Of a DNA stretch of 64,000 bases, positions 6,922 to 15,685 are shown one piece after another. The notes under the pieces are model-generated. The model searched no databases, was not told where the DNA came from, and was given only the letters and a program-made list of their open reading frames with translations. Source of the stretch: Bacteroidia bacterium (GTDB lineage: Bacteria > Bacteroidota > Bacteroidia > Chitinophagales > Saprospiraceae). The number at the start of each line of letters is the position of its first letter. Position 1 is the stretch's first letter. The position numbers were made by a program, and so were the translations under genes. The stretch covers positions 1-64,000 of the forward strand of contig JAUHXV010000006.1 of assembly GCA_030426765.1 (NCBI GenBank). Reading direction: 5' to 3'.

Positions 6922-7773
6922 CTAGGAAGCTGCCAGCCACTTTTTTAAAACCCTCGAAAAATACTTCATATCCTGAAACCCGCACTGTTCTGCTATTTCT
7001 GACCGGTCCTTTACTCCGGCATCAAGCATGCTTTTCGCTTTTATCATGCGTAAAGAATGGTGGTATTGAAAAGGAGTCAAATTGAACAGGAAGCGAAAGT
7101 TTCGATGGAAATAGTAATCGGAAAGTCCGGCTGCTTTCGCCATATCTTTTAGTGTGATGGCCTGGTCGAGATGATCATGAATGAAATGTCTACCCTGCTG
7201 CACTCGCCTGTAAAGTTCTTGTTTCGTTCTCGTGCCGACACGTTCAAGTGTCTGCAGTTGTCTCGCGGCATGCATCTGATGATTGACAAGATCCTCTGAT
7301 AGGAGGATAAGGAAATCTGTGAGTGAAGCCTGTGTGTGCTGTGTCTTTTTACTTTTTACCAATGCGTCGTGCAAGTGCGTGCTGAAGTGATGTATCGGAA
7401 TGTTGTTGAGCTCGTCACAGTGGCAAATTTCTTCAGGAGTAAAATCTTCCAGGTGACGTTCAACTGAAGCACACTGTGATGAGGCGATCTGATACACCAG
7501 CTCAGAAGCCAGGTAGAAGCAGGTGCCCTCCACATCCGTTAGGGAATCTATCTCTACTTCCACCTGCTGCCCGGGACTGACTACGATAAACTGATCTGCC
7601 TTTAAAGGGTAATATTGTCCGTCAATCGTATAATGTTCAGTGCCGCAGGTGACCATCTTAATGGAAAAATTGTCAGCCACCGATTTTCTTGCAAATCGTC
7701 TCAAGCTTGACTGGATCACAAAGTTGGAGCCGCTTACATCCTCCTGCTTTCGTATACCATACAGTTCGTTCAT
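6922..7773 (-). CDS. AraC family transcriptional regulator
   Basis: The 283-residue protein has a cupin-like ligand domain (residues about 20-110, with YYPLKADQFIVVSPGQQVEVE) and a C-terminal double helix-turn-helix: IHDHLDQAITLKDMAKAAGL, DYYFHRNFRFLFNLTPFQY and SEIAEQCGFQDMKYFSRVLKK. It lies 17 bases downstream of the flavin amine oxidase gene and 96 bases upstream of the esterase ATG, all on one strand, so it probably controls that unit. The inverted repeats at 9420-9540 are candidate operators, but no site has been shown. Confidence 0.9.
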   Translation of the reverse strand: MNELYGIRKQEDVSGSNFVIQSSLRRFARKSVADNFSIKMVTCGTEHYTIDGQYYPLKADQFIVVSPGQQVEVEIDSLTDVEGTCFYLASELVYQIASSQCASVERHLEDFTPEEICHCDELNNIPIHHFSTHLHDALVKSKKTQHTQASLTDFLILLSEDLVNHQMHAARQLQTLERVGTRTKQELYRRVQQGRHFIHDHLDQAITLKDMAKAAGLSDYYFHRNFRFLFNLTPFQYHHSLRMIKAKSMLDAGVKDRSEIAEQCGFQDMKYFSRVLKKWLAAS

Positions 7774-7790
7774 TTGTGTTTCTTTTTAAA

Positions 7791-9395
7791 TCAATCCAGT
7801 CGTCTGAGGATTTCTTCGGCGGCTTCTCTTCCGCTTTGCGCGGCGCCGTTCATAAAACCCTGAAACCAACCGCCACAGTGTTCGCCGGCAAAAAGGATAT
7901 TACCCAGTGGCATTTGTTCCGCTCCTGAAATACTGGTAAACTGCCCTTTGGTATAGCAGGTATAACTGCCCAGCGTATACGGATGCGAGGGCCAGTGCAT
8001 TCGCGCTATCTTTCCGTTAAACTGGCTCGCAGCGCCCGGGAAAATGCGCTCCCAAAGCGGCAGATATTTGTTTTTTTGAAACTCAGGCGTGCCTTCTCCG
8101 ACAGCAATGCCTGAAGGTCCACCAAATAAAATCGACAAACCGGCTGCTTCGTGATCGCGGTTTTGCAACTGCGCATTATCCCACCCATTAGGGATTCCGA
8201 TGTCGCTGTAGACCAGTCCGCCGTATCCCTGATCTCTCCAAAAATGAGACTTCATGCCGAGCATGAGTTTGGCATTTGTACCAAAACCCATGGTGTCAAT
8301 ACACCTGCGCTTGACAGCAGGCATCTCCACCGGCATATCGATCATGCGTAGTTTTGTAAAGGGTAGGGTCAGGATGACATAATCAGCCTGTACGGTCTCA
8401 GATTTCCCGGCAAAGTGCAGGGCATATCCGGTACCTGAAGGGCGCAGAGATTCCAGCGCGTGATTGAGGAGAATATCATCGGCGTATTTTTTCGCCAGCG
8501 CATCCGGGATGCTTTGGTTTCCGCCTTTTGCTTTATAGCGTTCGTCACTCTCCCCGAAAAAAGAAAGAGCACCATTACTCGTATCTGTCGAAATTAAAAG
8601 TGTCAAATTGAGGCTCGACTGTTCTTTAGGGGAACGTCCGTATTCGGATTCGTAGGCCATCTCAAGGAGGCGTTTGACCCAACCGCTGGCACCGATTTTT
8701 TTCAGGTATTTGGACACGCTCATTTTGTCCAGCTTGATAATATACGGGTCGGTAGCGGTGTAAGAGATATCTACATCATCGGTGAAGAGATCCATGTCCG
8801 CCTGCATACGCGGAGCGAATGTGCGGAAGCCATCTACGACCTCTTCCATCGTTCGATGCTCACCCTCAAAATAAAATGCCTCTGCTTCAAGCGCTGTTTC
8901 GCTGGCCTGCTGGTAGTCGATGAGTTCTATGTCAAACTCATTGGCAAGTGCCCACATGTCGGCATGGTTGGTGTCGATAAACTCTCCGCCAAATTCAGCC
9001 CAGGTGCCCGGACCCATCGCTTCCTGCACGGTAAACATCCGACCGCCTGTACGTCCACTGGCTTCATACACCGTGGCCGTCAGGTTGTTTTTCTTCAAAA
9101 TATGCAGCGCATGTAAACCTGCCATCCCTCCGCCGATGATCGCGATCGAAGGCGGTGTCCCTCTGAGAAATGGGAGATAAAACGATTTGCCGGGTTGGAT
9201 GAGCAGTCCGGGAGCTATAGCACCTCCTGCCATCAGTTTGCCGGTATCTTTTAAAAATTTTCTTCTCCGATTGATTTCCTCCTGAGCCTGACCGATCACT
9301 TCGGCTGTTTCCATTTGCATTTTTTCGGCTTTCAAAGCGAGATGAAATGCCTTGCGAAGGGAAGAGAAAAGTGGTGTGCGAATTGTTTTTTTCAT
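7791..9395 (-). CDS. Flavin-containing monoamine oxidase family protein, probable Tat substrate
   Basis: The 534-residue enzyme carries a Rossmann FAD motif IAIIGGGMAGLHALHIL with VYEASGRTGGRM (about residues 83-120) and the C-terminal FAD-contact segment ILFAGEHCGGWFQGFMNGA, both diagnostic of the amine oxidase family that deaminates amines or L-amino acids. Before the Rossmann fold, near residues 42-66, RRRKFLKDTGKLMAGGAIAPG looks like a twin-arginine signal, but it sits behind an unusual 40-residue charged extension. An internal start would give a normal signal, although ATG 9395 has a good A/T-rich leader. It leads the amine oxidase-AraC-esterase unit. Confidence 0.85.
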   Translation of the reverse strand: MKKTIRTPLFSSLRKAFHLALKAEKMQMETAEVIGQAQEEINRRRKFLKDTGKLMAGGAIAPGLLIQPGKSFYLPFLRGTPPSIAIIGGGMAGLHALHILKKNNLTATVYEASGRTGGRMFTVQEAMGPGTWAEFGGEFIDTNHADMWALANEFDIELIDYQQASETALEAEAFYFEGEHRTMEEVVDGFRTFAPRMQADMDLFTDDVDISYTATDPYIIKLDKMSVSKYLKKIGASGWVKRLLEMAYESEYGRSPKEQSSLNLTLLISTDTSNGALSFFGESDERYKAKGGNQSIPDALAKKYADDILLNHALESLRPSGTGYALHFAGKSETVQADYVILTLPFTKLRMIDMPVEMPAVKRRCIDTMGFGTNAKLMLGMKSHFWRDQGYGGLVYSDIGIPNGWDNAQLQNRDHEAAGLSILFGGPSGIAVGEGTPEFQKNKYLPLWERIFPGAASQFNGKIARMHWPSHPYTLGSYTCYTKGQFTSISGAEQMPLGNILFAGEHCGGWFQGFMNGAAQSGREAAEEILRRLD

Positions 9396-9602: not shown

Positions 9603-10667
9603 TCAGAAATTAACCGCTCCCAAGCCATATTCATGAGAAGGATAGAGGATCCCGTTTTTCAGGGTAAACAGGTTAGTAAACGGGTCTTCAAGCAAATCCA
9701 GATGGCCATCGAGATCTGCATATTCTATGTTCCGTCGACTCAGTGCAAAATGCAGGCCGGCAGAAATGCCCAGCGCACATTCATCCAGGCAACCCACCAT
9801 GACTTCCATGCCTGCCGCTTTGGAGACGGAATTGATATGCTGTGCCTCCAGGATTCCTCCGACCTTCATGATCTTTATATTGACCATGTCGATCAGATCA
9901 TGTCGGGAAAGTCGAAATGCATCTTTTAACGTTTTGATGCTTTCATCCGCCATCACCGGTATCGGAACATTTCGGGTCACTTCGCCTAACTGTTCTTCCT
10001 TAGTTTGCTTGGTAGGTTGTTCGAGAATTTCAATGCCGGCACTCGCTGTTTTTTCGATAAAAGAAATGGACTCCTCCGGTGTGTAACCCTGGTTGGCATC
10101 AAAGCGAAGCAAAAAATCACGTCCATAATGCTCGCGTAGTTTGATGATCTTTTCAATATCTTCTTCGAGGTGTAAACCTCCTTTTAGTTTGAGAATGGTA
10201 AATCCTTTATCCAGGAAATATCGAGCCTGTTCGATGGTCTCTTTGACAGGTAGAATGCCAATAGTGATACTGGTGGGGATTTCAGTTCTGTAGCCGCCGA
10301 GCAACTGGTACAAAGGAAGCTTTGCTTTTCTGGCGAGCAAATCATGTAATGCAATATCCACCATCGCCATCGTTGAGGAGGCATTCGGACATAAGGTTCT
10401 GAGCTGATCGACAAACCAGGCGATCTGAAATGGCGATTTGTTTTTCAATAAATCGATCAGGATCGTATCGATATTTCGAATCACGTCTTCCGGGGTTTCG
10501 CCCGTGACTTCCTGGTCAGGTGCGGCACATCCCCATCCGGTCAGCCCTTTGTCCGTGGTGAGCTTCAGGATGATATTGGTTGTCTCACTTACTGTCTCAT
10601 AGGCGATCGTATACGGAATCGCCAGTGGCATATCGATTCTGAAATACTCGATGTCGATGATCTTCAT
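9603..10667 (-). CDS. Dipeptide / N-acyl-amino-acid epimerase, enolase superfamily
   Basis: The 354-residue protein has the complete catalytic set of the muconate-lactonising/epimerase subgroup: KLK (Lys160, Lys162), metal ligands Asp190 in RFDANQ, Glu216 in EQP and Asp241 in ADES, the second base Lys265 in NIKIMKVGG, and a late DLD pair (318, 320) that in L-Ala-D/L-Glu epimerases binds the substrate amino group. It should therefore racemise the alpha carbon of a dipeptide or N-acyl amino acid; Ala-Glu dipeptides or N-acetylglutamate are best guesses. ATG 10667 is one base after the creatininase stop, which fixes the start and implies translational coupling. Confidence 0.88.
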   Translation of the reverse strand: MKIIDIEYFRIDMPLAIPYTIAYETVSETTNIILKLTTDKGLTGWGCAAPDQEVTGETPEDVIRNIDTILIDLLKNKSPFQIAWFVDQLRTLCPNASSTMAMVDIALHDLLARKAKLPLYQLLGGYRTEIPTSITIGILPVKETIEQARYFLDKGFTILKLKGGLHLEEDIEKIIKLREHYGRDFLLRFDANQGYTPEESISFIEKTASAGIEILEQPTKQTKEEQLGEVTRNVPIPVMADESIKTLKDAFRLSRHDLIDMVNIKIMKVGGILEAQHINSVSKAAGMEVMVGCLDECALGISAGLHFALSRRNIEYADLDGHLDLLEDPFTNLFTLKNGILYPSHEYGLGAVNF

Positions 10668-10668
10668 C

Positions 10669-11469
10669 TCAGTACCGATTTTGGTAGAGCTGATCAAAAG
10701 GGGTGTTTTTAATCGTTTCGACAAACTCTGCCATTTTGCGGATCATGATTTCCCACATTTGGTGTCCTTTTTCTGCGGTGGCTTTAGTGGCATTGCCCAT
10801 GACGCCGGATTTGGTGAGGCGTTCTGTATGCACATACCAGCTTACGCCCCGGTCTGACGTGTAGTCGAGATATTCATTGCCCAGATCGATGGTATCGTCA
10901 ACAGCTTTACGCATATCAACGAGTTCAGGACGGATAGCGAGGGTCGTGCTGGTTTCGATTTCACCGGCATGAATATCATTGTGCGTGTCGATCAGATCAT
11001 AGAGATCCACATCACTGGTCTCGCCGGTCTCCACGCAGACAAAAATTCTCGCGTCGCGGTTGATCATTTGGGCGGCATACGTGAGTGTAGGTACATTATC
11101 GCCATGTCCATTCAGAATGACCAGTTTTTTAATACCATTATGCGCAAGACTCATGCCTATATCATAGATCAGCGCCGAGAGTGCGTTGTTGGTGACCGAG
11201 ATGGTCCCTTTGAATTTACTGTGGTGATAGGAAACGCCAAACGGAATGACCGGAAGAACAAAAGGTTTTGGTTCCGGGCAGGCTTCTGCAACTTTGCGCG
11301 CCATGTACTCCGCGTCGAAAGTGTCCACATCCAATGGCAGATGTGGTCCGTGTTGCTCAATAGCTCCACAAGGCAATATGGCGGTATCAACATGCTTCAG
11401 GCGTTCTTCGATTTCCGGCCAGGTTAAGGTCGCCCACATAAAGTCAGGGTATTTTTCACTTTTGTTCAT
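10669..11469 (-). CDS. Creatininase-family amidohydrolase
   Basis: The 266-residue protein shows the family motif AILPCGAIEQHGPHLPLDVDTFDAE, with Glu, His and Asp that bind two metal ions, followed by GVSYHHSKFKGTISV, LNGHGDN and IHAGEIETS, all typical. The family includes creatininase, MftE and formamide hydrolases and cleaves cyclic or linear amides. ATG 11469 overlaps the end of the PP-loop gene by 14 bases; a longer frame to 11634 lies wholly inside that gene and is rejected. In this operon it could remove an N-acyl group from glutamate or open a lactam; this is inference. Confidence 0.88.
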   Translation of the reverse strand: MNKSEKYPDFMWATLTWPEIEERLKHVDTAILPCGAIEQHGPHLPLDVDTFDAEYMARKVAEACPEPKPFVLPVIPFGVSYHHSKFKGTISVTNNALSALIYDIGMSLAHNGIKKLVILNGHGDNVPTLTYAAQMINRDARIFVCVETGETSDVDLYDLIDTHNDIHAGEIETSTTLAIRPELVDMRKAVDDTIDLGNEYLDYTSDRGVSWYVHTERLTKSGVMGNATKATAEKGHQMWEIMIRKMAEFVETIKNTPFDQLYQNRY

Positions 11470-12970
11470 CGAACTTGTATTTCGGTGTGTTAATAAAAGC
11501 ATCATCAAGCGTGACATCTGTCCATTTCGTGTCAATGCGCTGGGTAGCCCCATCCGCGTAGTGACGTAGAATTTCAAACAAGGGTTGGCGAATGTGATGA
11601 GGCATATCTTCCAGGTTGCTTCGCTCTGCATCAAACCGAAGCTTCATGATTTCAGGGTGAGGCTTAGCGGCTTTTTGGGTAAATTCATTTCGCTCAATCA
11701 ATCCCTTTTCGAGCATCAGGTGATACAGGTGCGCCGCATCACTTCCGATTTGTTTAATGGATTTAGCAGCAAGGGTTTGAAGGCCTTGCGCGATTTGTTC
11801 GACGGAATACCCACATCGCTCAGGATTCTCATCGAGTGCCTTGACCATGCCTACGATTCTTCGGCATTTCTCACATTTTCCGCAAGGGTGCATTCGGCCA
11901 TCAACCTCATGCGCCGCATGACAGGATACCTGCTGCTGTTGTAAGACCGGATACCGTTTGATCAGCGTCTTCATAATGAGTAGTTCGGACAGACTCCGAA
12001 GGATCGAATACTGATAGATATTCCACCCCTTTTTTAGAAAATAGCGCGTCAAGGCATTGTCAAAATATTTGCTCTGATCGTACAGCCCGTTGTAATGCGA
12101 GATGCCGCTCAGGTTGCCTTTGACAGAGGTATCGTATTCATCTCCGATCAGGATATTGCCGATACCTTTTTTGCGGGCAACGGGAAGGACGCCAAACAGG
12201 AAAACGGCTACTGTCCACAAGCGGATCGGATAGATGTCAGCGCGAATGCTGGCAAAATTTTCTTTGATAAAAGGAAAATGGCGCAGCATCCAGGAAAACA
12301 AACGATCGCTGTTGCACCAGGGTTTTTCTGTATTGGGTTCTGTCTCTTTGAAAAAGCGATGGGCATTAACGGCGGTAAACCAATGTCTCCCCGCCTCATT
12401 GATGAAAACAGGGTAGGGTTCGCCAATTTCTTTGATGATTCCATAGGTCAGCAAGCTGTCTTTTCCTCCGCTGCTGAGGATAGCATATTTATTGAGATCC
12501 GTGTGGGCGTCCCCTTTTTCAAGTTTCAGATCAGCAAAGAGGGTGTTGGTAAATACGAGATTCGCCTGTGTGTATTTTTCTCTTTTTTCGGGTTGAAGGG
12601 TGTCGAATGGTGATTTGAGAAATTCGTTTTTAATGAGCAGTTTATTCGTGAGAATTTCGCGCGAAGTGTTTTCGGTCATGTCGCGGATAAACTGCTGGTC
12701 GGTCTGATCAAAAAGCCCGTCAAACTCGATCGTTTCAAAAAACAATCCGTAATTGAACGCCACCTGTGCCAGCATCATAGAGGCCAGATTGACATCGGCG
12801 GGATGTTTTTTGTTAAAATAGTTGTGCTCATACGAATAGATCAACTCAAAAGATGAAGACGCTCCGGAAAATGTCTCCACGCAGTATCGGGCCTTTACTT
12901 TTTTAGGCTCGATGTGCAACTGATCGACAGATAGCTTTCGAAGGACTTTGAAGGATTCGAGTTGGATCAC
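11456..12970 (-). CDS. PP-loop ATP pyrophosphatase resembling MurL (ATP-dependent glutamate epimerase)
   Basis: Starting at GTG 12970, which overlaps the DUF1611 stop as GTGA, the protein has 504 residues. A PP-loop SGGKDS (residues 167-172) shows it forms an acyl- or base-adenylate with release of pyrophosphate. A Cys cluster follows: Cys350, then HPCGKCEKC (Cys363, 366, 369), a likely zinc site. From memory this layout, an N-terminal beta-rich part, a GGKDS loop and a C-terminal CGKCxKC, fits MurL of Xanthomonas, which epimerises the terminal L-Glu of UDP-MurNAc-L-Ala-L-Glu using ATP. The context of two further glutamate-type enzymes supports this, but tRNA-thiolation or 7-cyano-deazaguanine-type PP-loop roles are not excluded. 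Confidence 0.7.
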   Translation of the reverse strand: MIQLESFKVLRKLSVDQLHIEPKKVKARYCVETFSGASSSFELIYSYEHNYFNKKHPADVNLASMMLAQVAFNYGLFFETIEFDGLFDQTDQQFIRDMTENTSREILTNKLLIKNEFLKSPFDTLQPEKREKYTQANLVFTNTLFADLKLEKGDAHTDLNKYAILSSGGKDSLLTYGIIKEIGEPYPVFINEAGRHWFTAVNAHRFFKETEPNTEKPWCNSDRLFSWMLRHFPFIKENFASIRADIYPIRLWTVAVFLFGVLPVARKKGIGNILIGDEYDTSVKGNLSGISHYNGLYDQSKYFDNALTRYFLKKGWNIYQYSILRSLSELLIMKTLIKRYPVLQQQQVSCHAAHEVDGRMHPCGKCEKCRRIVGMVKALDENPERCGYSVEQIAQGLQTLAAKSIKQIGSDAAHLYHLMLEKGLIERNEFTQKAAKPHPEIMKLRFDAERSNLEDMPHHIRQPLFEILRHYADGATQRIDTKWTDVTLDDAFINTPKYKFDEQK

Positions 12971-14037
12971 TTGATGAGGGATTTTAAAAGTGCTGTCAAT
13001 TCTTCGGCGCCAAAGGCGAGAACATCGTATGCAGGCAAGCCTGTTTCTTCTGTGATTTTGGCACATGCCGGAAGAATTTCTGCTTCGCTCATGCCTTCAT
13101 GGTTGACCGTTACAGCGATGACCTTTTTGCCGGAGATTACTTCGACGGCGTTGATTTGTTCCTGGATAGGGTGGAGTGGATATCCCGGAAAACCATCGTA
13201 TTCCACGCGTGTGGGGGCGTGTTGCATGATGACGTAGTCCGGCCTTCCGGCAGCGAGTATTTCAAATCCTCCGGGATAGGCCGGATTCATCAGGCTGCCC
13301 TGGCCTTCGATGACAATGAGGTCTGGCGATTCATTTTTCCAGGCTTCATGAACAGCGTGTTCAATCTCACCGGCGACAAAATCGTTGATGCAGCTGTCGA
13401 GGATCATGGAGTATTTGGCGCCTTGCATCCAGGCGGTTTGACCTGTGCCTACCATTTGGGCTTTAAGCCCTGCTTTTTGAAAAGCGTGAACGAGTATCCA
13501 GGCCGTGGTGCGTTTGCCGATGGCGGAGTCAGTACCCAGTAGCGCGATCTTCAGGCAGTCTACTTCTTCAATTTTTCCGGTAAAAAAATGCAACTCGTCG
13601 CGGTCGGGTGTGCGCCTGACATCGCGGATACGGCAATTGTTCTTTTCGGCCAGCGCCATGATCTCGCTGTCTTTGTACAGAAAATCATGCAAGCCACTGT
13701 CCACGTTCATGCCCAGTTCCAGCGCGCGTTTGATAGATCCCTTGGCTTCAGCGGGCAGTCGTCCGCCATCCGGTGCCAGTCCGATCACATAGGATTTGGG
13801 TTTATTGTCTGAACCAAGTGTGTCAAGTGCAGTAGTCAGGTCTTTGAAGATGGGAATGCCATTTGGTTTTCCGTCGAGCACCTGGCCTGCGTCTTGTCCG
13901 GCATAGGTCTGGTCAATCACACCCACCACATCATAGCGTTCAGTAAAGCGAACAAGGCCATGGGCTGTTTTGCCGTTGGGCATGTTAAATGCTTTGTCAC
14001 AATAGACGATGGCTTTGCCATCAATAGAAGATTTCAT
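12967..14037 (-). CDS. DUF1611 family P-loop protein (DgcN-like)
   Basis: The 356-residue protein has an N-terminal Rossmann-like domain (AIVYCDKAFN, VGVIDQTYAGQDAG) and a C-terminal P-loop domain with LLGTDSAIGKRTTAW at residues 167-180 and IVIEGQGSLMNPAYPG further on. Both are hallmarks of DUF1611. A characterised DUF1611 protein, DgcN of marine bacteria, acts with an enolase-superfamily racemase (DgcA) in D-glutamate catabolism as a D-glutamate N-acetyltransferase. The same two families occur in this operon. The start is 3 bases after the PLP-enzyme stop and its own stop overlaps the next GTG, so the operon is tightly coupled. Confidence 0.85.
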   Translation of the reverse strand: MKSSIDGKAIVYCDKAFNMPNGKTAHGLVRFTERYDVVGVIDQTYAGQDAGQVLDGKPNGIPIFKDLTTALDTLGSDNKPKSYVIGLAPDGGRLPAEAKGSIKRALELGMNVDSGLHDFLYKDSEIMALAEKNNCRIRDVRRTPDRDELHFFTGKIEEVDCLKIALLGTDSAIGKRTTAWILVHAFQKAGLKAQMVGTGQTAWMQGAKYSMILDSCINDFVAGEIEHAVHEAWKNESPDLIVIEGQGSLMNPAYPGGFEILAAGRPDYVIMQHAPTRVEYDGFPGYPLHPIQEQINAVEVISGKKVIAVTVNHEGMSEAEILPACAKITEETGLPAYDVLAFGAEELTALLKSLIK

Positions 14038-14040
14038 GGA

Positions 14041-15105
14041 TTAATATTTTCCTGTGAGTATGGCGACATATCGGTCGTTGATCATTTCATTTTTTTCGTG
14101 CAGCTGCAAAAGTGCAATCAGGCCGGAAGTGGAAGCAGGCAGGATGCGATAGCCTTCTTTCTTGTGAAGAAAGCTGCTCATCTCTTTCATTTTTTTATCG
14201 CTGATATGACTGGCCTCGCCACCGGATTGTCTCAGCGCGTAGAGAGCTTCATCTCCATCAAAGCTATGCCAGTTGATCAGGGGTTCGTTAACCACTGTCT
14301 CCTTGATTTTGGCTGGATCGATGTCTTTGCATGTATCGAGGCCGGCGCGAAAAGAAGAAATGATGGGATTCTGGTGAGCTGCTGACCCGGCCACAAATCT
14401 GGGAATCCTGCTTGTCTTCCCCCGCTTGTGCAGGTTGACAAATCCACGATACACACCTGCCAGCAATGTGCCATTGGAGACCGGAGATGCGATGTATTTT
14501 GGTGCATCGCGGAGGACGTCATAGATTTCGTAGGCAATTTCTGCATAGGCTGAAATCTGTAACGAAGTATTCGCACCACCCGGGTTGGCATCATACCATC
14601 TTTTTTCCAGCGCGATTCGGCTGGACTCAGTGACCGTATCCTCGTATGTCCCCGGCAGTCGTATGATTTCCGCGTTGAAAGCTTCCATCTCTTTGATCCT
14701 TTCTGTGTGGTAAGATTCCGGGATAAAAATCTTACAATGCATGCCGGCGAGGTAGGCAGCATAAGCAACAGCCACTCCGTAGTTGCCGCAGGTGGCAACG
14801 GTGATAATGCTAAACTTTCTGCGGAGGGCATCGTGCACCTGAGCGAAGGCGATTCTGTCTTTTTGTGTACCAGAGGGATTCTCTCCTTCGTATTTGATAT
14901 AAAGTTGGCGGATATCCAGTTCTCTTTCCAGGTTGCGCGCACGATTGAGTGAAGTGTCGCCGATTTCGAGGGACATGATGTCTTCAAAAGATTCGACGCG
15001 GTCGACCAGAGTGAGTTTGGTGTCCTTGACCATCTCACTCAGGGTCTTCACTTCTTTGGTGATCTTTATTTCGGCTGTTTTTACGCCGTCGAGAATATTG
15101 AGCAT
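14041..15105 (-). CDS. Fold-type II PLP-dependent enzyme, threonine synthase-like
   Basis: The protein of about 354 residues has the fold-type II features: GDTSLNRARNLE, the PLP-lysine loop EGENPSGTQKDRIA, an altered Asn loop TCGNYGVAVAYAA in place of the usual SSGNHG, and a phosphate-binding loop SPVSNGTLLAG. It resembles threonine synthase and cystathionine beta-synthase-like lyases, but GTQKDR replaces GSFKDR of true threonine synthases, so another amino-acid substrate is likely. The frame is open to 15174, overlapping the upstream gene by 23 bases; ATG 15105 seems more natural but is not certain. It is the first enzyme gene of the epimerase operon. Confidence 0.8.
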   Translation of the reverse strand: MLNILDGVKTAEIKITKEVKTLSEMVKDTKLTLVDRVESFEDIMSLEIGDTSLNRARNLERELDIRQLYIKYEGENPSGTQKDRIAFAQVHDALRRKFSIITVATCGNYGVAVAYAAYLAGMHCKIFIPESYHTERIKEMEAFNAEIIRLPGTYEDTVTESSRIALEKRWYDANPGGANTSLQISAYAEIAYEIYDVLRDAPKYIASPVSNGTLLAGVYRGFVNLHKRGKTSRIPRFVAGSAAHQNPIISSFRAGLDTCKDIDPAKIKETVVNEPLINWHSFDGDEALYALRQSGGEASHISDKKMKEMSSFLHKKEGYRILPASTSGLIALLQLHEKNEMINDRYVAILTGKY

Positions 15106-15151: not shown

Positions 15152-15685
15152 TCATGCTGGTTGTCGTTCGTCAATGACTACATGGTAGCCCTGATTTTTC
15201 CATCCGGATATCACTTTTTCCAATTGTGATATCATGTAATGAGAATCCAGCTCAAAGTCAAACCGGCGTTCGTTTTGGTCTGACAGAATGGATATGGAGT
15301 TGATGATGGGCTTCCCTTTTACTTCTTTTGTCATGTCGGATATTGACTCATGGGGAATGGTGTACTTTTCCTGTACACGGATCCGATCTAGTGATTTCGG
15401 AGAAAACGATTCAGTGGCTTTTCCGTTTTTCGTTTTGATTCGTATTTCATCCGGATCGATTTCGATCATGCGGTGACCCAGCAGGGTCGACATGCCCTTT
15501 TGGTTTTTAATGGCTAAGACTATGATGATTAAATAAGCTATAAGGCCGGTCATGGTTAGCCACACAGGAAGATCATAGAAGTTGACCAGAATTGCCACTG
15601 GGATAGCAGGGAGAAATAAGAATAGCAGGTATTTCCTCCGGAGGCGGTAGTAGGCCGCGTCTTCTATGAGTTTGGCTTTGAACAT
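15152..15685 (-). CDS. Hypothetical membrane protein with a cytoplasmic domain
   Basis: I do not recognise this 177-residue protein. Residues about 20-60 form two hydrophobic helices (YLLFLFLPAIPVAILV and LTMTGLIAYLIIIVLAI); the rest is a soluble, PH-like beta-rich domain with IEIDPDEIRIKTKNGKATESF, which resembles bPH-type repeats only loosely. Its stop lies 46 bases upstream of the preferred start of the PLP enzyme, so it may be the first gene of that operon. A small membrane sensor or scaffold is possible; no catalytic motif is visible. Confidence 0.6.
   Translation of the reverse strand: MFKAKLIEDAAYYRLRRKYLLFLFLPAIPVAILVNFYDLPVWLTMTGLIAYLIIIVLAIKNQKGMSTLLGHRMIEIDPDEIRIKTKNGKATESFSPKSLDRIRVQEKYTIPHESISDMTKEVKGKPIINSISILSDQNERRFDFELDSHYMISQLEKVISGWKNQGYHVVIDERQPA

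Follow-up and report, generated by a model that had tools for sequence, protein, structure and literature searches.

In the DgcN-DgcA pathway, which degrades D-glutamate through N-acetylglutamate, a DUF1611 protein (DgcN, which is said to acylate D-glutamate) and an enolase-superfamily racemase (DgcA) are encoded in one operon. MurL consumes one ATP, yields AMP and is described without known domains (PMC5808125, PMC8788868). QatC is described as a QueC core with N- and C-terminal extensions and a four-cysteine zinc site, and QueC relatives are stated to modify proteins (PMC13279940). Here we analyze a cassette of five genes that brings distant relatives of these proteins together, at positions 9603-15105 on the minus strand of a 64,000-nucleotide stretch of Bacteroidia DNA (contig JAUHXV010000006.1, hereafter the window). 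The cassette is a real and widespread five-enzyme pathway, undescribed as far as our searches reach. Its genes, starting from the upstream end, are as follows.

14041..15105, minus strand: pyridoxal 5′-phosphate (PLP)-dependent enzyme of the threonine-synthase branch (PALP, 181.8 bits), ATG at 15105
12967..14037, minus strand: DUF1611 protein with a Rossmann-like and a P-loop domain, a distant DgcN relative (PF07755, 222.5 bits; PF17396, 83.2 bits)
11456..12970, minus strand: PP-loop enzyme P0001 of the QueC/QatC/MurL superfamily, GTG start
10669..11469, minus strand: creatininase-family metal amidohydrolase (PF02633, 246 bits)
9603..10667, minus strand: dipeptide epimerase of the enolase superfamily (MR/MLE; MR_MLE_C, 147.5 bits), ATG start

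The gaps between the genes (3, −4, −14 and 1) match the gene ends, and the cluster with these boundaries is the one recognized in the original prediction, which was made from the window sequence without database searches. Pfam domains found across the cassette are MR_MLE N and C, Creatininase, DUF1611 N and C, and PALP. None of the five proteins has an obvious signal peptide, the N-termini being judged by eye with no predictor run. Residues of the PLP enzyme are counted from a longer open reading frame (ORF) start at 15174 (subtract 23 for the ATG at 15105), and those of the epimerase from 10664, one codon inside the gene (add 1 for the start at 10667).

Relatives were retrieved by way of the PP-loop gene, so that the count of this gene itself carries no meaning. 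Of 296 sampled genomes of the phylum, 7 encode the PP-loop protein, the window genome included; these are called the cassette genomes below. Among one genome per species, the gene was found at 191 places, the best 80 of which were kept. We scored 83 loci, with L010 and L011 (the same stretches as L030 and L033) and L053 left out of the counts; L083, where the ORF scan gave no cassette gene, stays in the denominator. Where ORFs overlap, the scan retains the longer one, and it can overlook genes (the amidohydrolase in L070 and L088), and loci of the same genus were not all removed. Counted in this way, the PLP enzyme was present in 76 loci, DUF1611 in 74, the PP-loop protein in 80, the amidohydrolase in 76 and the epimerase in 60, and the complete set in 55 of the 83. 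The 28 incomplete loci comprise 10 with a locus end within 1.2 kb, 17 without one, and L083. Gene order was constant wherever the genes were present, the only exceptions being other genes inserted in L044, L048 and L051. In addition, 28 of 80 loci encode the PP-loop protein and the amidohydrolase as a single polypeptide, usually some 780-800 residues long, and this fusion suggests a shared intermediate.

Record titles of the relatives name ten phyla, namely Bacteroidota, Calditrichaeota, SAR324, Deltaproteobacteria (with Desulfobacula), Aminicenantes, Gemmatimonadota, Zixiibacteriota, Latescibacterota, KSB1 and Acidobacteria, plus a Melioribacteraceae bin, although many are metagenome bins and single ones, such as an 8-kb SAR324 contig, are possibly misassigned. 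The pairwise distances of the five families correlate with each other (r = 0.75-0.90; 51 complete sets, the window included). When kinship was judged by nearest identity, with no tree built, all five genes of the cassettes titled Calditrichaeota and Desulfobacula had their closest counterparts in Bacteroidota cassettes and in one another, a pattern that suggests transfer of the whole cassette. One exception is L075, where the PLP gene does not group with its neighbors. The arrangement is not due to chance, because the relatives keep the set together. This result supports the proposal that the genes are one translational unit, and the scattering of the set in relatives, which had been named as evidence against the original prediction, did not occur. 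The original prediction also knew of no description of the set, and none was found in the literature that we searched, mostly titles and abstract openings; papers on DUF1611 alone, judged in the same way, were unrelated to it. A 2026 survey of PF06508 reports further QueC clusters, none described with this gene set in the part available, and leaves its clusters 7, 8 and 10 without detailed analysis (PMC13329287).

Other genes recur beside the cassette. A block of four genes, encoding a secreted-looking PPDK-like protein, two beta-lactamase-fold hydrolases and a TLC ATP/ADP transporter with HEAT repeats, lies next to it in L048 (1806-9773) and also in L028, L034, L044, L051 and L075, with parts in L035, L056 and L037. 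In L044, L048 and L051 (Eudoraea, Muriicola) this block is inside the cassette, between the DUF1611 and PP-loop genes.

The PP-loop protein of the window had no Pfam hit at 1e-3, and its sole NCBIfam hit at E ≤ 0.01 was MurL (NF041275), at 18.3 bits against a cut-off of 700. The same model matched 54 of 59 relatives at E ≤ 0.1 (best 5.4e-9) and was by far the most frequent NCBIfam relative, followed by PRK13795 in 5 (best 0.027) and QatC in 1 (E = 0.056). At E ≤ 0.1, the Pfam models found among the 59 were DUF6395 in 30, QueC (PF06508) in 18, with a best value of 6.5e-4 and no match in the window protein, and DUF7070 in 9. A six-frame search with the MurL model returned two places in 198 genomes of the phylum, both in the cassette, and none in 14 control genomes, but failed to detect the copy in the window; the search is thus specific but not sensitive. 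The distant relationship to MurL that had been proposed is supported by these searches. The SSGGKDS motif has Asp in 79 and Glu in 2 of 81 relatives, and the four cysteines of the cluster (Cys350/363/366/369, spacing C-x12-C-x2-C-x2-C) are present in all 81, so that the PP-loop motif and Cys4-like cluster seen in the window are invariant or nearly so.

The AlphaFold model of the protein is of high quality (predicted local distance difference test score 93.5, predicted template modeling score 0.91). In the Foldseek ranking, QueC (1.8e-4) and Cap9 (5.2e-4) came first, and the nitrile synthetase ArtA was fourth at 0.033. A second structural comparison, which excludes only the families that it took in, placed QatC first (Z 14.2, root-mean-square deviation 4.4, 317 aligned residues) and QueC close behind (Z 13.3, 4.0, 205 residues), a Z difference of less than 1. 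The protein thus has the fold, the SGGxDS-type motif and the Cys4 site of the QueC-like PP-loop superfamily. Clustering with tRNA-modifying enzymes had been named as the finding that would count against a MurL-like protein, and here the answer is divided, the fold being QueC-like and the sequence nearest to MurL. We considered tRNA modification as a function and rejected it despite the QueC fold, because MurL is nearer in sequence and no queuosine gene was noticed among the recurring neighbors. The safest statement from sequence and model is that the protein is a putative carboxylate-activating enzyme of the QueC/QatC/MurL group, which may form an amide or invert a center. Since the MurL model matches proteins of the QueC fold, MurL itself is therefore predicted to be a QueC-type PP-loop enzyme.

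Compared with MurL, the cassette enzyme may plausibly share the ATP-dependent activation of a terminal carboxylate, and the window genome, like MurL users, has no MurI over the cut-off. It differs in scoring far below the MurL cut-off, in having four other enzymes instead of a MurD2 partner, and in that MurI is present in five of the seven cassette genomes. With QueC, QatC and Cap9 it has in common the PP-loop fold, the motif and the cysteine spacing, and with QatC the extensions on both sides of the core that PMC13279940 describes. In contrast, its Pfam QueC matches are weak, its sequence is nearer to MurL, and qat genes and genes of the cyclic oligonucleotide-based anti-phage signaling system (CBASS), like those for queuosine, were not noticed among the recurring neighbors.

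The closest solved structure to the epimerase is the L-Ala-D/L-Glu epimerase 1jpm (E = 3e-64), and the closest ones are dipeptide epimerases. The KxK motif, the Asp-Glu-Asp metal site, the second Lys and the DxD motif were present at every position in 61 of 61 sequences, and the catalytic residues seen in the window are therefore kept across the relatives. The substrate pocket is different. Arg24 of the B. subtilis L-Ala-D/L-Glu epimerase is the ligand of the Glu side chain, whereas the equivalent position in the cassette epimerases is occupied by Glu in 57 of the 61 sequences, by Asp in 2 and by Gln in 2, and the neighboring pocket position (Ile298 equivalent) is Asp in all of them. According to the alignment, this Asp is also found in the Methylococcus enzyme 3rit, which acts on basic dipeptides. 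The cassette family is thus like 1jpm, 3jva and 3rit/3ro6 in its catalytic residues and DxD motif, but the Glu-plus-Asp pair occurs in none of five aligned solved relatives. The DxD motif holds the free N-terminus of the dipeptide; together with the acidic pocket, its invariance makes a free dipeptide whose second residue is basic or neutral a more likely substrate than glutamate or an N-acyl amino acid, as judged from the aligned residues. The DgcA equivalog model gave 145.4 bits, below its cut-off of 400. In PMC13338154, a dipeptide epimerase is simply put to use.

The PLP enzyme passes the NCBIfam threonine synthase model NF004996 (413.1 bits, cut-off 266), and its Schiff-base Lys is present in 72 of 72 relatives. 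At the positions of Asn154, Ser155 and Arg160 in T. thermophilus threonine synthase (ThrC), which form the phosphate-binding trio, it has Gly, Gly and Gln in a HMMER alignment that is gapped there, and the relatives have Gly (72/72), Gly (67/72) and Gln (72/72). The enzyme had been called an altered PLP lyase, and this holds for the substrate side, the catalytic lysine being intact. Housekeeping threonine synthesis was considered as its role and rejected, because a separate ThrC exceeds the TIGR00260 cut-off in five of the seven cassette genomes and a sixth is just below it (164.9 versus 167.1). The window genome (95% complete) is excepted: no second ThrC reached the cut-off, the cassette enzyme being the best match, and the genome may be without ThrC or the assembly may miss it.

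In the DUF1611 protein, the P-loop GTDSAxGKRT (x = I, V or L) was present in 73 of 73 relatives. Its DgcN equivalog score, 152.7 bits, does not reach the cut-off of 480, and the cassette differs from DgcN-DgcA in that both proteins are below the equivalog cut-offs, three extra enzymes are present and the epimerase pocket is without the Glu-binding Arg. A DUF1611 gene paired with a second MR/MLE epimerase (32% identical), without the other three enzymes, was also found in genome G183 (L099, 5451-7660), on a different contig from the cassette of that genome; both proteins are below the DgcN and DgcA cut-offs.

The amidohydrolase keeps the creatininase metal motif that had been noticed in the window: Glu38, His40, Asp49, His122 and DxHAGxxETS were present in 77 of 77 relatives. 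It shares fold family and metal ligands with creatininase and MftE, but reaches neither model (MftE TIGR03964, 142.3 bits, cut-off 172; creatininase TIGR04448, 123.2 bits, cut-off 235), and Ile, Val or Ala stands in place of creatininase Glu177, the cassette family having HAGE instead.

What is observed for the cassette is its conserved set and order, the natural fusion, the folds and the catalytic residues, and from these we infer the chemistry. The fusion together with the fold suggests ATP-driven amide or peptide chemistry. Our preferred explanation, which we hold tentatively and rate somewhat short of an even chance, is a single cytosolic biosynthetic pathway to a small non-glutamate metabolite of the amide or dipeptide type, probably serving osmotic or ionic adaptation. 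The PLP enzyme would make or modify an amino acid by beta- or gamma-replacement, using a substrate other than phosphohomoserine. DUF1611 might then act on the amine of that amino acid, comparable to DgcN on D-glutamate, or on a carboxylate via its P-loop. The PP-loop enzyme would adenylate a carboxylate with ATP, followed by transfer to an amine to give an amide bond or by epimerization of the activated compound, and the amidohydrolase fused to it would work on its product. The epimerase would act on a dipeptide with a basic or neutral side chain at the second residue and set its D/L configuration, and the product may accumulate as a compatible solute or be linked to turgor otherwise.

The original prediction was a different one, namely that DUF1611 acylates glutamate, the epimerase and the MurL-like enzyme invert it, and the creatininase relative removes the acyl group to give D-glutamate or a peptide containing it. 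The prediction had suggested looking for murI in the window genome, and no glutamate racemase MurI reached the cut-off there (22.3 of 146.65 bits). The only Asp/Glu-racemase-family protein of the genome was examined as a candidate and rejected, being an aspartate-type racemase (TIGR00035, 135.5 bits over a cut-off of 93.1) that scores 23.1 of 146.65 bits with the glutamate racemase model. MurI was over the cut-off in five of the seven cassette genomes, the other two being the window genome (G000) and G183, and in 53 of 60 genomes of the order. The seven without it comprise two of 75-80% completeness and five of one family, f1, in which MurI was over the cut-off in none of the five sampled genomes (G000, G037, G064, G158, G162). 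The four besides the window genome are 100% complete and have no PP-loop relative, which indicates that the family lost MurI without needing the cassette. This pattern, together with MurI in five of the cassette genomes, suggests that the cassette does not track the loss of MurI. In none of the seven cassette genomes did a D-amino-acid transaminase pass the cut-off, the window genome having a relative at 129.5 of 277.45 bits.

Part of the glutamate proposal is borne out, since DUF1611 adjoins an enolase-superfamily epimerase as in DgcN/DgcA, the distant link to MurL exists (the sole NCBIfam hit of the window protein), and the nearest solved structure of the epimerase is an L-Ala-D/L-Glu epimerase. 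The two cassette genomes without MurI over the cut-off and the lack of a transaminase over its cut-off also favor it. The MurI result leaves room for a D-glutamate role in G000 and G183, which counts against the non-glutamate product preferred above. On the other side, the position of the Glu-binding Arg is acidic (Gln in 2) and the pocket Asp invariant, the DxD motif for a free N-terminus speaks against N-acyl substrates, the DgcN, DgcA and MurL models are all far below cut-off, MurI is distributed as described, and neither the PLP enzyme nor the neighboring mechanosensitive channels of the MscS type (see below) would be explained. Synthesis or breakdown of D-glutamate as the main role of the cassette was for these reasons (pocket, cut-offs and MurI) set aside as unlikely, and we regard the acylation-inversion-deacylation route itself as quite improbable.

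A catabolic role also has to be considered, in which dipeptides with a D- or unusual residue, such as cell-wall fragments, would be converted by the epimerase to the LL form, split by the amidohydrolase into amino acids, and the unusual residue deaminated by the PLP enzyme. A recycling function is proposed for the dipeptide epimerases of E. coli and B. subtilis (PMC5808125), beta-lactamase-fold hydrolases and nitrilase-family enzymes recur nearby, a glutaminase lies upstream in the window, and the DUF1611-epimerase pair of L099 occurs without the other three enzymes. This role nevertheless appears unlikely to us, because no constant transporter or peptidase is found among the 83 clustered neighborhoods, an ATP-consuming, carboxylate-activating enzyme fits synthesis, and the MscS and ion-transport neighbors would have no explanation. 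Alternatively, the QueC/QatC-like enzyme might take a small product of the other four enzymes and attach it to a macromolecule, i.e., a protein N-terminus, a lipid or the cell wall. Cap9, which joins a deazaguanine to protein, would be a precedent, QatC is the longest structural match with a Z value within 1 of QueC, and modification of proteins by QueC relatives is reported in PMC13279940. However, no recurring candidate substrate protein accompanies the cassette, the QatC model touches only 1 of 59 members, and the gene order and fusion look metabolic, and we consider this possibility very improbable.

The osmotic part of the preferred biosynthetic explanation comes from the neighboring genes. 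MscS-type channels were counted with an in-house profile in 82 loci with 997 kb of flanks: 18 were found in 15 loci, where 1.6 are expected from the density in the seven cassette genomes (46 in 28 Mb), and 10 lie within 2 kb of the cassette against 0.5 expected. In a dereplicated set of 69 loci, 15 had MscS versus 1.4 expected. Pfam confirmed the MscS domain in all seven that were checked singly (L014, L091, L056, L061, L067, L075, L098). In L014, the MscS ORF is 1 bp upstream of the PLP gene, and in L091 it overlaps the PLP ORF by 8 bp, both on the same strand; the L014 genome has a second MscS after the epimerase across a contig break (L098), which is outside the count. CorA was found in 7 loci, of which two are Eudoraea; Na+/H+ exchangers adjoin the cassette in 2 loci, UspA occurs in 2, and an AA_permease-family protein, which we read as the cation-chloride type, is present in L013, with a cluster mate in L035. 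Named isolates account for about 25 loci, and nearly all of these isolates are known as marine, with Kordia zhangzhouensis as a freshwater exception. We propose that channels and ion transporters adjoin the cassette because its product is tied to turgor.

Ectoine and N-acetylglutaminylglutamine amide (NAGGN) operons use acylation or ATP-dependent amide chemistry. The cassette would resemble them as a small cytosolic biosynthetic operon, for which an adjacent release channel would make sense, but has no enzymes in common with them. Release of solutes through mechanosensitive channels is described in PMC5924519; its passages on such channels gave no statement on channel genes in ect clusters. 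Among the seven cassette genomes, the NAGGN amidotransferase was present in all at E ≤ 0.001 and in none over the cut-off, an OtsA-like gene in two and ectoine synthase in one (31.1 bits, cut-off 27). This distribution of known-osmolyte genes is compatible with a solute role and is no test of it.

Several points weigh against the osmotic interpretation or the pathway as a whole, among them the OtsA-like and ectoine synthase genes just given. The expected number of MscS genes was taken from seven genomes by a detection method different from that of the count, and loci of the same genus are not independent. When nearest and farther proteins were compared by Pfam, MscS was found in 6 of 117 versus 2 of 117, which is not significant (Fisher, p = 0.28). 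Of 132 proteins in each group, 117 entered this comparison, the 132 farther ones being a random draw from 143; the 15 nearest proteins omitted, by choice of the author, were the four inner genes of L044, two each from L015, L084, L090 and L095, and one each from L059, L070 and L092. No MscS was found in the stretch examined in 67 of 82 loci, the window among them, and the nearest one on the window contig is about 83 kb away. The marine origin of the named isolates is partly inherited from their groups. A search of the window and six loci gave no riboswitch or other Rfam match, tRNAs only. No nearby end accounts for the absent gene, most often the epimerase, in 17 of the 28 incomplete loci, and there the epimerase may be dispensable or encoded elsewhere. 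Finally, substrate and product are assigned by inference only. Among the guesses that can be tested, the neighbors favor an osmotic role, which we rate below an even chance. The more specific form of this explanation is a previously undescribed compatible solute, a short peptide-like amide with a D- or unusual diamino residue. It would be built by an amide-forming enzyme of the QueC fold joined to an amidohydrolase, and the cassette would have spread as one unit among marine Bacteroidota and no fewer than nine other phyla; we consider this form possible, though on balance doubtful. To our knowledge, the osmolytes of marine Bacteroidota and of those other phyla are poorly known.

Further genes were observed around the cassette. 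Small membrane proteins of the DUF5698/DUF2179 type recur in L077, L083, L084, L091 and L098 (by Pfam in L091 and L098, by clustering in the rest), and YitT/DUF2179 proteins are near the cassette in L085 (Pfam) and L094. A protein cluster combining GNAT and carbon-nitrogen hydrolase is found near it in seven loci (L012:12756-14315, L018, L042, L044, L048, L051, L060), and L012 has a separate carbon-nitrogen hydrolase 17 bases after the epimerase. In the window, a membrane-type ORF of 177 residues without a Pfam hit (15152-15685) lies 46 bases upstream of the cassette, followed by the glutaminase, and both are outside the list of recurring neighbors. Downstream on the same strand (6922-9395) are an AraC-type regulator and a flavin amine oxidase, which are not recurring neighbors either. 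A promoter scan gave 7 sites versus 9.5 in shuffles, i.e., fewer than in shuffled sequence, and terminator-like hairpins numbered 14 versus a shuffle mean of 8.4 (standard deviation 2.9), which was not used as evidence.

The cassette is found in many unrelated water and sediment bacteria, where it probably makes a peptide-like product and perhaps helps them to cope with salt. A conserved and ordered set of five enzymes with a recurring fusion and no published function found indicates a metabolite missing from current maps. The family-wide absence of MurI raises the question of the source of D-glutamate in these bacteria, and the prediction that MurL, described without known domains, is a PP-loop enzyme follows from the same comparison. 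If the salt interpretation is true, the cassette would open osmoadaptation in marine Bacteroidota and related sediment bacteria to genetic study; should that interpretation be wrong, the cassette still offers a defined test of the role of a MurL/QueC-type enzyme outside cell-wall and queuosine synthesis.

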